This document shows, piece by piece, positions 9,177 through 31,183 of a stretch of DNA of 64,000 nucleotides. The notes below the pieces were generated by a model. The model was not told the origin of the DNA, did no database searches, and saw nothing but the letters and a program-made list of their open reading frames with translations. This stretch comes from Rothia nasimurium. Its GTDB lineage: Bacteria; Actinomycetota; Actinomycetes; Actinomycetales; Micrococcaceae. Location of the stretch: positions 1 to 64,000 of the forward strand of contig NZ_CAKMSR010000001.1 of the NCBI RefSeq assembly GCF_928381705.1, in the 5' to 3' direction. Both the position numbers and the translations under genes were made by a program. How positions within the stretch are numbered: the first letter of the stretch is position 1; every line of letters starts with the position of its first letter.

Positions 9177-9579
9177 TTTGCCTGACGCGGGTATACAGGC
9201 GCGTGCGCCTCAGTGGTACGCAGGACGCCAAGTAAGCGCGGCATATGAACCGAAAGCAAGCTGGCTCGGCGGCTGGCGTGAATCGCACCTGAGCGAAGCG
9301 AAGCTGCGAGAGGGTCGCTTGCGAAGGTTCATATGCCGCGCTATCTGTAATATCCGGAGTACCAGAAACTAGAATCCCTCCCGCCCCTAAAGTCGCATTT
9401 GACTCTTACTCAGCGACCCAAAACATACAGCGCAACCTACCCCACAGCTACCCAACGCAACCCCTCTTTACTACAATAGAAACCAACAAAGACCCACACT
9501 TTGGATTGCCTAAACGGGCAGAAACCCAACAGGGTCACCACCATCATTCCCCACCAGGAATAACACAAGGAGTTTCTCC
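9177..9579 (+). other. 403-nt gene-free region before pfkA
   Basis: Apart from palindromic element copy 1 (9235-9342) it holds an AC-rich stretch with a possible pfkA -10 TACAAT at 9472-9477, lacking a clear -35, and the pfkA ribosome site AAGGAG at 9567-9572. No open frame with coding character was seen. Confidence 0.5.
9235..9342 (+). repeat. Dispersed palindromic element, copy 1
   Basis: A 108-nt imperfect palindrome between the aminotransferase and pfkA. Outer arms of 17 bp pair perfectly (9235-9251 with 9326-9342, containing GGCATATGAACC/GGTTCATATGCC). The interior holds the core GGCTGGCGTGAATCGC (9271-9286), then TGAGCGAAGCGAA and GCGAGAGGGTCG, nearly identical to the interior at 29.05 kb, whereas the arms are unrelated. 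It lies about 60 nt past the aminotransferase stop, so it may end that transcript. Confidence 0.75.
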
Positions 9580-12563: not shown

Positions 12564-12606
12564 ATCGGCAAACCAGTCCGAGGAGAGGGGCAGGTATAAG
12601 CAGCGA

Positions 12607-12763
12607 GGGGCGCCCCTCTGACGACTAACCTTCTCGCAGGCTCACTCTGGCTCGCAAGCTCGCCAGATTCGCGCCGAGATTATTTTCCTCGCGCGCTCGG
12701 AATCTCGACGCTCATCGCCTGCGATTCATGCCAGCCCCAGCCAGTCGTCTGCCGGGGCGCCCC
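12607..12763 (-). repeat. Dispersed palindromic element, copy 3 (divergent, inverted)
   Basis: A 157-nt nested palindrome: GGGGCGCCCC at both ends (12607-12616, 12754-12763), GACGACT/AGTCGTC (12620-12626, 12743-12749), TCGCAGGC/GCCTGCGA (12634-12641, 12717-12724) and an inner CGAGATT/AATCTCG hairpin. On the minus strand it carries GGCTGGCATGAATCGC (12721-12736), 15 of 16 bases shared with the core at 9.27 and 29.09 kb. The arms differ from both other copies. It lies between the terminator of the 12.9-kb genes and the nitrobindin-like gene. Confidence 0.6.
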
Positions 12764-12803
12764 CGCTGCTCCCTTCACCTTAGGTGCCCGAAATATAAAG
12801 AAA

Positions 12804-29048: not shown

Positions 29049-29164
29049 GTAAGGTGGCGCAGGCTCGCAGCGAAGCTGCTGGCTCGGCGGCTGGCGTGAA
29101 TCGCTTGTGAGCGAAGCGAACCAGCGAGAGGGTCGGCAGCGAGCGCGAGCCTGCAAAACCTTAC
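29049..29164 (+). repeat. Dispersed palindromic element, copy 2
   Basis: A 116-nt nested palindrome just past the deaD stop. Arms GTAAGGT/ACCTTAC (29049-29055, 29158-29164) and GCAGGCTCGC/GCGAGCCTGC (29059-29068, 29145-29154). Interior core GGCTGGCGTGAATCGC (29089-29104), then TGAGCGAAGCGAA and GCGAGAGGGTCG, as in copy 1; the arms are unrelated to copy 1. Located at the 3' end of deaD. Confidence 0.75.
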
Positions 29165-29179
29165 TCCGGGGCACAGCCC

Positions 29180-31183
29180 TTAGAACTTCTTGCGGCCCTT
29201 CTTCTTGCCGCCGAAGTCCTTCTTGCCGAAACGGTCGTCGCGGTCGAACTTTTTCTTGCCGCCGAAGTCCTTCTTGCCGAAACGGTCGTCGCGGTCGAAC
29301 TTTTTCTTGCCGCCGAAGCCGCGGTCGTCACGGTCAAATTTCTTGCCGCCGAAGTCCTTCTTACCGAAGCCGCGGTCGTCGCGGTCGAACTTGCGTCCGC
29401 CTCCGCCGCCCTTGGGGCCGCGGTCGCGCTTGATGTTGATGAATTCGCCGGCTACCTGGGTGTCGCGCAGGCGGTCAAAGAAGTCACCGGGCAGTTCTGC
29501 TTCGGGCAGGGAGACGATGGTGAAGTGCTGGCGGATATCGATTGCGCCGACCTGCTTACCCTTGATGCCGCCTTCGTTGGTGAGGGCACCGACGATAGCT
29601 GCGGGTGAGACGTGGGATGAGCGTCCTACGTTGAGCTTGAAGTCGACCATGCCTTCTTCGGAGTGGCGGCGGCCGCCGCGGGGCTTGTCGTCGCGGTCGA
29701 AGTCGCGGTCACGGTCGCGCTTCTTGCTCTTGGGTTCGGGCATTTCTTCGGCCAGGAAGGGGCGGCCCTGCTGGGCGATGACGGCCAGGGCTGCTGCGAT
29801 TTCTTCGCCTTCGACGTCGTGTTCGTTGGCGTAGGCGTCGATGAGTTCGCGGAAGAAGCTGAGGTCTTCGGTTTCGATGGTGTCGGTGATCTGCTGGGCA
29901 AACTTCTGCTTGCGGTTGGCGTTGACATCTTCAACGGTGGGCATGTGCATCTGTTCGACCTGCTGGCGGGTTGCCTTTTCGATCTGACGCAGCATGTACT
30001 TTTCACGCGGGGTCATGAAGAGGATGGCTTCGCCTGCGCGGCCTGCGCGGCCGGTTCGGCCGATGCGGTGCACGTAGGATTCGGTGTCGTGGGGGATGTC
30101 GAAGTTGACGACCAGGGAGATGCGCTCGACGTCGAGGCCGCGGGCGGCAACGTCGGTGGCGACCAGGATGTCGATGCGGCCATCGCGCAGGGCTTCGACG
30201 GTGCGTTCGCGCTGGTTCTGGGGGATGTCGCCGTTGATGGCGGCAGCCTGGTAGCCGCGGGCCTTGAGCTTGTCGGCGACTTCTTCGGTTTCTTTCTTGG
30301 TGCGGACGAAGGCGATGATGCCGTCGTAGTCTTCGACCTCAAGCACGCGGGTCATGGCTTCGAGCTTGTGGGAGTGCATGACCTGCATGTAGCGCTGGCG
30401 GATGTTGGCGCTGGTGGTGGTCTTTGACTTGACGCGGACCTCTGCGGGGTCGTTGAGGTACTGATCAGCGATCTTGCGGATGGTCTTGGGCATGGTTGCT
30501 GAGAAGAGGGCAACCTGCTTGGAGTCGGGGGTGTCTGCCAGGATCTGTTCTACGTCTTCGGCGAAGCCCATGCGGAGCATTTCGTCGGCTTCGTCCAGTA
30601 CCAGGTACTGCAGGTTGGAGAGGTCCAGGGAGCCCTTTTTCAGGTGGTCGATGACGCGGCCGGGGGTACCGACAACGACCTGGGCGCCGCGCTTGAGGCC
30701 TGCCAGCTGGGGGCCGTAGGGTGAGCCGCCGTAGACGGGCAGCACGGTGAAGTCGGGCATTTCGGTTGCGTAGGACGAGAAGGCTTCGGCAACCTGCAGG
30801 GCCAGTTCGCGGGTGGGGGCTAGGACGAGTACCTGGGTGTCTTTGGAGACACCGTTGATGTCGGCCAGTTCTGCCAGGGTTGAGAGGGCAGGTAGGGCGA
30901 AAGCTGCGGTCTTGCCGGTGCCGGTCTGGGCTAGGCCGACGACATCGCGGCCTTCAAGCAGCAGGGGGATGGTTTCAGCCTGGATAGGTGAGGGCTTTTC
31001 GTAGCCGACTTTTTCGAGGGCTGCCAGGACGCGGGCGTCCAGGCCCAGGTCGGTGAAGCGGGTGCCGCCGCCCTCGTCCTTTTCTACCTGCTGGGTGGGG
31101 GTGTCTACAACCGGTTCCTGGAAGATGGCGTCGGTTGCGGTTTCTGCGTTAACGGCAGTATTTTCAGTCAATGTTGTCCTCAT
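29180..31183 (-). CDS. deaD: DEAD-box RNA helicase, CsdA/DeaD-like, with FDRDDR repeats
   Basis: A 667-residue helicase. Core motifs: Q motif (GYEKPSPIQAETI), AQTGTGKT (Walker A), PTRELA, VLDEADEML (DEAD), SAT in FSATMPKTI, and HRIGRTGRAGR (motif VI). A DbpA/CsdA-like RNA-binding domain follows (~residues 545-620), and the basic tail repeats FGGKKKFDRDDRFGKKD. It unwinds structured RNA in ribosome assembly and cold adaptation. The start is uncertain: ATG 31183, or a TTG at 31171 that has a better ribosome site (GATGAGGA). Confidence 0.92.
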   Translation of the reverse strand: MRTTLTENTAVNAETATDAIFQEPVVDTPTQQVEKDEGGGTRFTDLGLDARVLAALEKVGYEKPSPIQAETIPLLLEGRDVVGLAQTGTGKTAAFALPALSTLAELADINGVSKDTQVLVLAPTRELALQVAEAFSSYATEMPDFTVLPVYGGSPYGPQLAGLKRGAQVVVGTPGRVIDHLKKGSLDLSNLQYLVLDEADEMLRMGFAEDVEQILADTPDSKQVALFSATMPKTIRKIADQYLNDPAEVRVKSKTTTSANIRQRYMQVMHSHKLEAMTRVLEVEDYDGIIAFVRTKKETEEVADKLKARGYQAAAINGDIPQNQRERTVEALRDGRIDILVATDVAARGLDVERISLVVNFDIPHDTESYVHRIGRTGRAGRAGEAILFMTPREKYMLRQIEKATRQQVEQMHMPTVEDVNANRKQKFAQQITDTIETEDLSFFRELIDAYANEHDVEGEEIAAALAVIAQQGRPFLAEEMPEPKSKKRDRDRDFDRDDKPRGGRRHSEEGMVDFKLNVGRSSHVSPAAIVGALTNEGGIKGKQVGAIDIRQHFTIVSLPEAELPGDFFDRLRDTQVAGEFINIKRDRGPKGGGGGRKFDRDDRGFGKKDFGGKKFDRDDRGFGGKKKFDRDDRFGKKDFGGKKKFDRDDRFGKKDFGGKKKGRKKF
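29204..29356 (-). repeat. 51-bp tandem repeats in the deaD 3' end
   Basis: The unit starting CTTGCCGCCGAAG recurs with a 51-bp period at 29204, 29255 and 29306; the first two units are identical, the third diverges part way. Each encodes 17 residues of the FDRDDR/KKDFGG tail. Copy number could vary between strains. Confidence 0.8.

Follow-up and report, generated by a model that had tools for sequence, protein, structure and literature searches.

A genus-specific family of MITE-like palindromic repeats in Rothia combines a conserved core with covarying arms

Three palindromic copies in the window

The DNA analysed here (the window) is a 64,000-nucleotide stretch of the Rothia nasimurium genome that holds three copies of a palindromic element, each consisting of a conserved core enclosed by long complementary arms. 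Copy 1 lies in the intergenic region before pfkA (9177-9579), copy 2 next to a gene for a DEAD-box helicase, and copy 3, on the opposite strand to the others, between two genes. Their parts are as follows.

9235-9342, + strand: copy 1, whole element (covariance model 93.2 bits, E 2.8e-19), with the layout distal arm AGCGCGGCATATGAACC, proximal arm GCAAGC, core, then the mirrored arms
9235-9251 (left) and 9326-9342 (right), + strand: distal arms of copy 1, 17 bp, AGCGCGGCATATGAACC on the left
9271-9286, + strand: conserved core of copy 1, GGCTGGCGTGAATCGC, exact
29049-29164, + strand: copy 2 (A-type), whole element (covariance model 126.9 bits, E 1.3e-27)
29049-29055 and 29059-29068, + strand: left arms of copy 2, GTAAGGT and GCAGGCTCGC, with mirrors at 29145-29154 and 29158-29164
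29089-29104, + strand: conserved core of copy 2, exact
12599-12770, - strand: copy 3 (B-type), whole element (covariance model 57.5 bits, E 2e-10), with an outer arm that contains GGGGCGCCCC
12749-12743, - strand: inner arm of copy 3, GACGACT, with its mirror at 12626-12620
12721-12736, - strand: core of copy 3, GGCTGGCATGAATCGC, one mismatch
12645-12716 (approximate extent), - strand: extra apical module of copy 3, nested in the loop and containing GATTCCGAGCGCGCGAGGAAAATAATCTCGG

The original prediction of a core shared at three places, exact in copies 1 and 2 and with one mismatch in the inverted copy 3, was confirmed, as were the complementary arms of 17 bp in copy 1, GTAAGGT plus GCAGGCTCGC in copy 2 and GACGACT in copy 3. 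The second pair claimed for copy 3, TCGCAGGC, proved to be its inner helix, and a further outer arm (GGGGCGCCCC) exists. The arms were also said to be unlike between copies; this is so among the three, but the arms of copy 2 (GCAGGCTCGC and its neighbors) are common to many paralogues. Conservation of arms between copies, proposed as the mark of a simple duplication, therefore applies in part, in that arms are common within one subfamily. The statement that all copies are found 3' of a gene is only loosely true. Copy 2 follows directly after a stop codon, in antisense orientation, and copy 3 is 3' of one gene, separated from it by what is apparently the terminator of that gene, and shortly precedes the start of the next.

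Compared with dinucleotide shuffles, the folding of copies 1, 2 and 3 gave z-scores of -7.9, -8.0 and -3.6, respectively. With up to three mismatches the core has three matches in the window against 1.17 expected, which is unremarkable from the window alone, and at E 0.01 the covariance model detected in the window no copy beyond these three. At orthologous positions, the site of copy 2 is occupied in genome G012 by an allele without the element and with a GGGCACA repeat at the joint, and the site of copy 3 in other Rothia is empty, inverted or without the extra loop module.

Two of these neighborhoods have features of their own. The region before pfkA (orthologues L074-L084) is a hotspot for elements: L080 and L082 each have two adjoining elements, oppositely oriented and from different subfamilies, and L075 has just a simple hairpin whose arms are those of one of the two. 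The helicase adjoining copy 2 has a C-terminus (29180-29330) that is a run of GGKKFDRDDRFGKKDF-type repeats, and in alignments its orthologues differ in length by repeat-sized steps.

A dispersed family in the genus Rothia

Genome-wide (2.6 Mb), the core GGCTGGCGTGAATCGC with at most one mismatch occurs 45 times, 20 times in forward and 25 times in reverse orientation, while the reversed core pattern, used as a control at the same tolerance, has 0 matches; it is this comparison, and not the three matches in the window, that proves the observation real. A covariance model built on 37 aligned copies, those of the 45 without a long loop insert, detected 75 copies in the genome at E 0.01. The searches of the genome and of relatives with core and model yielded many further copies, in this genome and in other Rothia, and bear out the original view of a dispersed family.

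Under stricter filters, the covariance model detected the element in 20 of 35 Rothia genomes and in 0 of 24 genomes of other genera. Named hosts among the matches listed include R. nasimurium, R. endophytica, R. nasisuis, R. aerolata and R. amarae, and a Micrococcaceae metagenome-assembled genome (L351) has a true match. Three non-Rothia matches, L301 (E 0.79) and L310 and L342 (none at E 1), were taken as chance. A plasmid search with the element gave no match, and a phage origin was rejected, the best model match being E 0.16 among the 80 listed of at least 120 viral stretches.

That no described family matches, as originally stated, agrees with our searches. On the window and 14 loci only tRNA and SRP RNA scored over the Rfam 15 gathering thresholds, with no model fitting the elements, and searches of open-access literature on palindromic, repetitive or MITE sequences in Rothia gave no description of the family. 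As far as the literature searched shows, the family is undescribed.

The elements are about 105-260 bp in size and consist, from the outside in, of a variable distal arm (median own-arm match, 17 bp), a small purine-rich internal loop, a variable proximal arm of ~6 bp and the core. The core, with the consensus YTGGCT..GGGKCTGGCRTGAAT..AGARGGT, comprises a helix of 4 bp and an apical hairpin; it occupies the loop of the long inverted repeat and is better conserved between paralogues than the arms are. In eight of the 45 copies a long stretch separates the core from the right half; by eye, seven of these carry an additional apical hairpin module (~65 nt), and the other (L035) is a partial tandem copy.

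The arms covary but behave more like DNA palindromes than RNA stems

The original prediction offered two readings of the arms, one of which was that they covary as RNA stems around a fixed core. The covariation itself is strong. A structure on 37 copies had 91.6% of its cells paired, with 157 double-change cells compared with 38.8 in shuffles, and its covariation score was 0.415 compared with 0.155 in column shuffles, 0 of 500 of which scored as high. In a strand-neutral alignment with one copy per site (102 of 109 sites), 1538 of 1622 arm positions formed Watson-Crick pairs. Arms match their own partners, with a score of at least 10 at 93 of 109 sites and at 3 of 109 when arms were swapped between sites.

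Such covariation would be expected if the elements were a structured RNA family, for example a small RNA or a 3'-UTR element, in which the arms are stems under selection for pairing and the core is the functional motif. This possibility also gains from the conserved G-U pairs and the asymmetric purine-rich internal loop of the core, from the proximity of the elements to stop codons, and from the excess of G-T (55) over A-C (11) arm pairs in the covariance-model alignment. However, that alignment favors G-U, and in the strand-neutral alignment the positions other than Watson-Crick were 27 G-T or T-G, 15 A-C or C-A, and 42 others. The 5:1 ratio was accordingly dropped as proof of selection on a single strand. 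In the strand-neutral data the excess of G-T over A-C is weak (27 vs 15, p 0.09, one copy per site); over all copies it is 64 vs 28 (p 2e-4), a count in which relatives enter repeatedly. G-T accounts for 27 of the 1565 standard pairs in the arms (1.7%), and RNA stems usually contain several times more G-U than this. Because the G-T share is low and its excess over A-C weak, RNA pairing is unlikely to be the main keeper of the arms, and the sequences suggest that the arms behave more like DNA palindromes. Further points against the RNA explanation are that at 24 of 34 tandem sites the neighboring genes run antisense to the core strand, that interiors invert between orthologues (both below), and that the elements match no Rfam model. 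Altogether, we consider it unlikely that the family is a structured RNA.

The core differs from the arms. Its helix P2 contains 239 G-U among 850 standard pairs in a 90-copy alignment, and these G-U pairs, together with the higher conservation of the core than of the arms, hint at a folded and selected sense strand.

Arms usually come and go with the core

To follow the elements between genomes, we compared orthologous stretches. These covered ~820 kb in G020 and G027, 360 kb in G000 together with the remaining copy loci of that genome, 120 kb in G012, the neighborhood of pfkA (12-20 kb in 20 genomes, 11 of which entered the later counts) and 77 named loci of 4-8 kb. The motif search gave 207 hits, of which 17 failed a stricter motif, look like chance hits in coding sequence and were removed. 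The resulting 190 copies occupy 109 sites, 37 of them found with both flanks matched in at least two genomes.

Alleles with and without the element are common at orthologous sites. The clearest insertion among the alleles listed is L352 versus G027, where the empty site reads GAGAACTAGAATG and a CTAGA repeat lies at the stop codon. Together with the insertion sequence (IS) termini and 3-bp duplications of a subset (below), presence and absence at orthologous sites support that the element is mobile, as had been proposed.

The second reading in the original prediction was that the core is itself the mobile unit and inserts into the center of existing hairpins or terminators, so that the arms belong to the target. 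Core-less alleles, scored only from genomes without a copy at the site in question, are available for 36 sites; 21 of these include an armless allele, 3 a one-arm allele, 4 a two-arm allele and 23 a different element or a remnant. The bare hairpin that this reading calls for at empty sites was, therefore, found at 4 of 36 sites, and it finds further support in two 18-bp arms of G000 that meet as a 24-bp palindrome in G020 and in core-less short versions in L465, L470 and L475. The armless alleles at 21 of 36 sites, on the other hand, indicate that arms usually enter and leave a site along with the core, and some arm-only or one-arm alleles have deletion-like direct repeats at the joint (AAGCGCA, AGGGTCGCAGC). 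Moreover, in the copies inspected the arms directly adjoin the core without leftover loop bases, and arms are not followed by T-tracts: at least six T in the 9 nt after the arm occurred in 1 of 95 cases on each strand, compared with 1 and 5 in a control 60 bp farther out. We conclude that insertion of the core into the loops of existing terminator hairpins is very improbable indeed. Lacking a T-tract after the stem, the elements were also rejected as intrinsic terminators. Creation of an arm from a single flank, considered for the joints G000_L014 and L373, was set aside, as deletion explains them equally.

Interiors invert and one arm is overwritten by the other

At 11 of the 37 multi-genome sites, the interior of the element is inverted between similar arms. 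Because inversion was scored on 30-base windows, which include the proximal arm common within a subfamily, we also applied a stricter arm criterion, by which the count is 9; copies with a neighbor within 400 bp were left out. In one example (G000 C1:215 kb), G000 and G020 differ in this way from G027 and both flanks keep their orientation. The inverted interiors are ~70 bp or more. At some inverted sites the distal arms differ, and these could be independent insertions. At 8 sites with the same arms, the loop module is present in some copies and absent from others.

The A-type elements also provide information on how arms change. The stretch outside their arm is normally asymmetric, with AGGTGRAG on the left and CGGAACC on the right, and this canonical asymmetry is found at 20 of 49 sites, a count that includes one mislabelled copy (G027 no. 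55) with fully complementary arms. In L024 and L029, the stretch outside the right arm is, over 8 of 8 bases, the exact reverse complement of that outside the left arm, which is itself still near the usual left side of the subfamily; L316 has the same change at 7 of 8 bases. G020 copy 25 has the opposite change, its left side being the exact reverse complement of the usual right side (8 of 8 bases). In nine further A-type copies the two sides are complementary, neither having the usual sequence.

When it occurs between inverted repeats, template switching is reported to homogenize arms and invert the spacer, in parts of PMC8604942, and to yield compensatory changes, in parts of PMC8794818. Judged by sequence comparison, L024, L029, L316 and G020 copy 25 appear to have undergone arm homogenization in multi-base blocks, and the 11 of 37 sites appear to have undergone spacer inversion between unchanged arms. 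Inverted interiors and overwriting of one arm thus fit template switching during replication as presented in those portions of PMC8604942 and PMC8794818, and replication would be the probable cause of arm copying in this family.

A subset of the elements carries the termini of a resident IS5-like element

A search with a recurring outer arm, GGCTTATTCA, found it to be the terminal repeat of insertion sequences of ~0.9 kb. The IS is about 903 bp long, has the terminal inverted repeat (TIR) GAGGCTTATTCA and encodes a protein of 271 aa that matches Pfam DDE_Tnp_4 (E 3.2e-21) and HTH_Tnp_4 (E 5e-11), both over cut-off; its best NCBIfam model is transpos_IS5_4 (IS5 family), at 58 bits below the cut-off of 140. 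At E 1e-10 the transposase is present in 20 of 35 Rothia genomes, in G010, G012 and G027 as fragments only. Among these 35 genomes, 19 have both IS and element, one the element only (G004, 87% complete), one the IS only (G010) and 14 neither, an association with a Fisher p of 9e-8 that takes genomes as independent and is confounded by clade.

With up to two mismatches, the TIR GAGGCTTATTCA is present on one or both sides of 26 of the 189 core copies. Over all 206 motif hits the count is likewise 26, compared with a mean of 0.8 and a maximum of 3 for 40 shuffled patterns, and with up to three mismatches the TIR is found on both sides of 21 of the 206 hits, compared with at most 1 for 40 shuffled patterns. 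Target duplications of 3 bp flank 14 of 27 IS and 13 of 38 short TIR-bounded elements (with and without core); with flanks shifted by 3 bp, the numbers are 0 of 27 and 1 of 38. The 27 IS rows include L470, which is a span of two short elements and no IS, and the 38 short elements include some that overlap (L371, L487, L504) and some that are orthologous (L469/L473, G000/G027). No core lies between the IS ends in any of the 27 IS rows; L478 has a core copy elsewhere in the locus. A 4-bp YTAR target was also considered and dropped, IS and MITE copies having 3-bp duplications. By their sequences, then, we identify the TIR-bearing elements as MITEs of the resident IS5-like element. Because 163 of 189 core copies have no TIR within the searched flank, and so the majority do not qualify as MITEs by their termini, mobility by the IS5-like element is supported for a minority only.

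By length, the short TIR-bounded elements group at about 145, 160, 195, 225 and 255 bp, and 13 of 36 do not match the core motif. In longer TIR-bounded versions (L469, L470, L471, L473, L171 and L467), a hairpin module, GGATGAAGTGAGCGGGTGCG...CCGCCGCAAGGCGG, replaces part of the core, and because of this exchange we regard the family as modular.

Two of the ~0.9-kb IS5-like elements lie 2 kb apart in G020 (C1:543988-544892, L501, and 546795-547696, L477); the first, which has a TTT duplication at its flanks, sits inside a reading frame with an apparent Walker A (ATP-binding) motif. Draft contigs end at or near IS or TIR fragments in G012 (C8, C18), G000 (C15) and G002 (C9). Because the IS seems to break draft assemblies, its copy number is probably under-counted.

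Gene context and strand

With genes called by a simple codon-score method, the 71 element sites in G000 comprise 28 between convergent genes, 24 between tandem genes in antisense and 10 in sense orientation, 3 between divergent genes and 6 at the edge of the fetched stretch. Elements are, therefore, antisense at 24 and sense at 10 of the 34 tandem sites. The median distance from the model end to the stop codon is 12 bp for antisense genes (57 cases) and 50.5 bp for sense genes (38 cases), and at the 28 convergent sites the antisense stop is nearer in 14 only. Stop-codon proximity and antisense bias could reflect target choice, selection or short intergenic gaps.

Orientation shows no bias with respect to replication among the copies listed, with ratios of 19:25 in G020 (44 of 51 copies listed) and 21:21 in G027 (42 of 49 listed). 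This bears on the possibility that the elements are moved as single-stranded hairpins by an HUH or tyrosine recombinase, comparable to REPIN/RAYT or attC, so that the core would be the recognized fold and the arms would need only to pair. Strand-specific G-U pairs in the core, the lack of an IS5-like TIR in most copies and a fold that is kept while arm sequence varies speak for such a route. Against it, together with the lack of replication-strand bias, stands the finding that a Y1 transposase was not detected in G000 and was found in 3 of 35 Rothia, and we hold it to be very unlikely. REPIN/RAYT specifically was rejected, PF01797 occurring in 3 of 35 Rothia and not in G000; each of the three genomes has a single Y1 (IS200/RAYT-like) transposase (L154, L155, L156).

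Discussion

We conclude that the family consists of MITE-like palindromic repeats with an unusual evolutionary signature and is genus-specific. The explanation that we favor, and consider somewhat better than even, is that these are Rothia-specific, small, non-autonomous palindromic mobile elements, with at least one subfamily being MITEs, whose arms are kept matched by template switching. Specifically, TIR-bearing copies would presumably be moved in trans by the resident IS5-like transposase. During replication the arms would form hairpins, and polymerase template switching would repeatedly replace one arm by a reverse-complementary copy of its partner and occasionally flip the interior of the element. 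Arm sequence could thereby drift while complementarity stayed near perfect, giving RNA-like covariation at the level of DNA, and the core, lying in the loop, would have no partner to be converted by. Copies without IS termini may be older, decayed or internally rearranged relatives, or may move by another route, and the core may be kept by constraint, as a hairpin or through recognition by a protein, or by conversion among copies. This template-switch/MITE model leaves the antisense bias at tandem sites unexplained.

As an extension that we regard as quite improbable, the core could be a hairpin, recognized by the replication machinery or by a protein, that stimulates template switching or makes its own interior flip site-specifically. 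If so, the element would remake its arms from any flank and be an invertible, self-repairing palindrome, which would represent a new way to stay palindromic without conserved arm sequence and a false positive for covariation-based RNA discovery.

The family resembles several known systems. Bacterial MITEs such as QMITE2, as portrayed in excerpts of PMC10969869, are likewise small, non-autonomous and intergenic, with a transcript that would be expected to fold stably, and, like a subset of the Rothia copies, they have short target duplications and TIRs that match a resident IS. Compared with the MITEs of those excerpts, most Rothia copies have no TIR, the conserved core lies inside arms of unrelated sequence, loop modules are nested and exchangeable, and interiors invert between species. 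BOX, RUP and SPRITE of Streptococcus pneumoniae, in the sections of PMC3049150 that describe them, are also modular small repeats with predicted stem-loops, variable modules and, for some, IS-like TIRs; by description, their modules vary in number, whereas in Rothia the stem arms vary yet stay complementary. REP/REPIN sequences with RAYT, according to parts of PMC2817692, are similarly dispersed extragenic palindromes, but in the Rothia family the arms are not conserved and no Y1 transposase was found in the genome. Similar in behavior are template-switch hairpins in rRNA stems and yeast inverted repeats, for which passages in PMC8794818 and PMC8604942, respectively, describe arm homogenization, compensatory changes and spacer inversion; in comparison with those passages, Rothia has a mobile bacterial family of long palindromes with inverted interiors of ~70 bp or more instead of a few bases.

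The conserved part of the Rothia elements lies in the loop and not at the ends, which sets them apart from integron attC sites. In attC sites, as in the Rothia family, the fold is kept while arm sequence varies.

Arm homogenization and spacer inversion have been inferred from yeast genes and rRNA stems in the portions of PMC8604942 and PMC8794818 concerned. The Rothia elements, with 190 copies at 109 sites, 37 of them multi-genome, provide a natural bacterial series for both processes. They also suggest that strong covariation, at a level that 0 of 500 shuffles reached, need not mean a functional RNA, the tell-tales against one being a low G-T share and inverted interiors. Rothia is a genus of animal and human commensals and opportunists, and it gains from these elements a marker family and a tractable IS/MITE pair.
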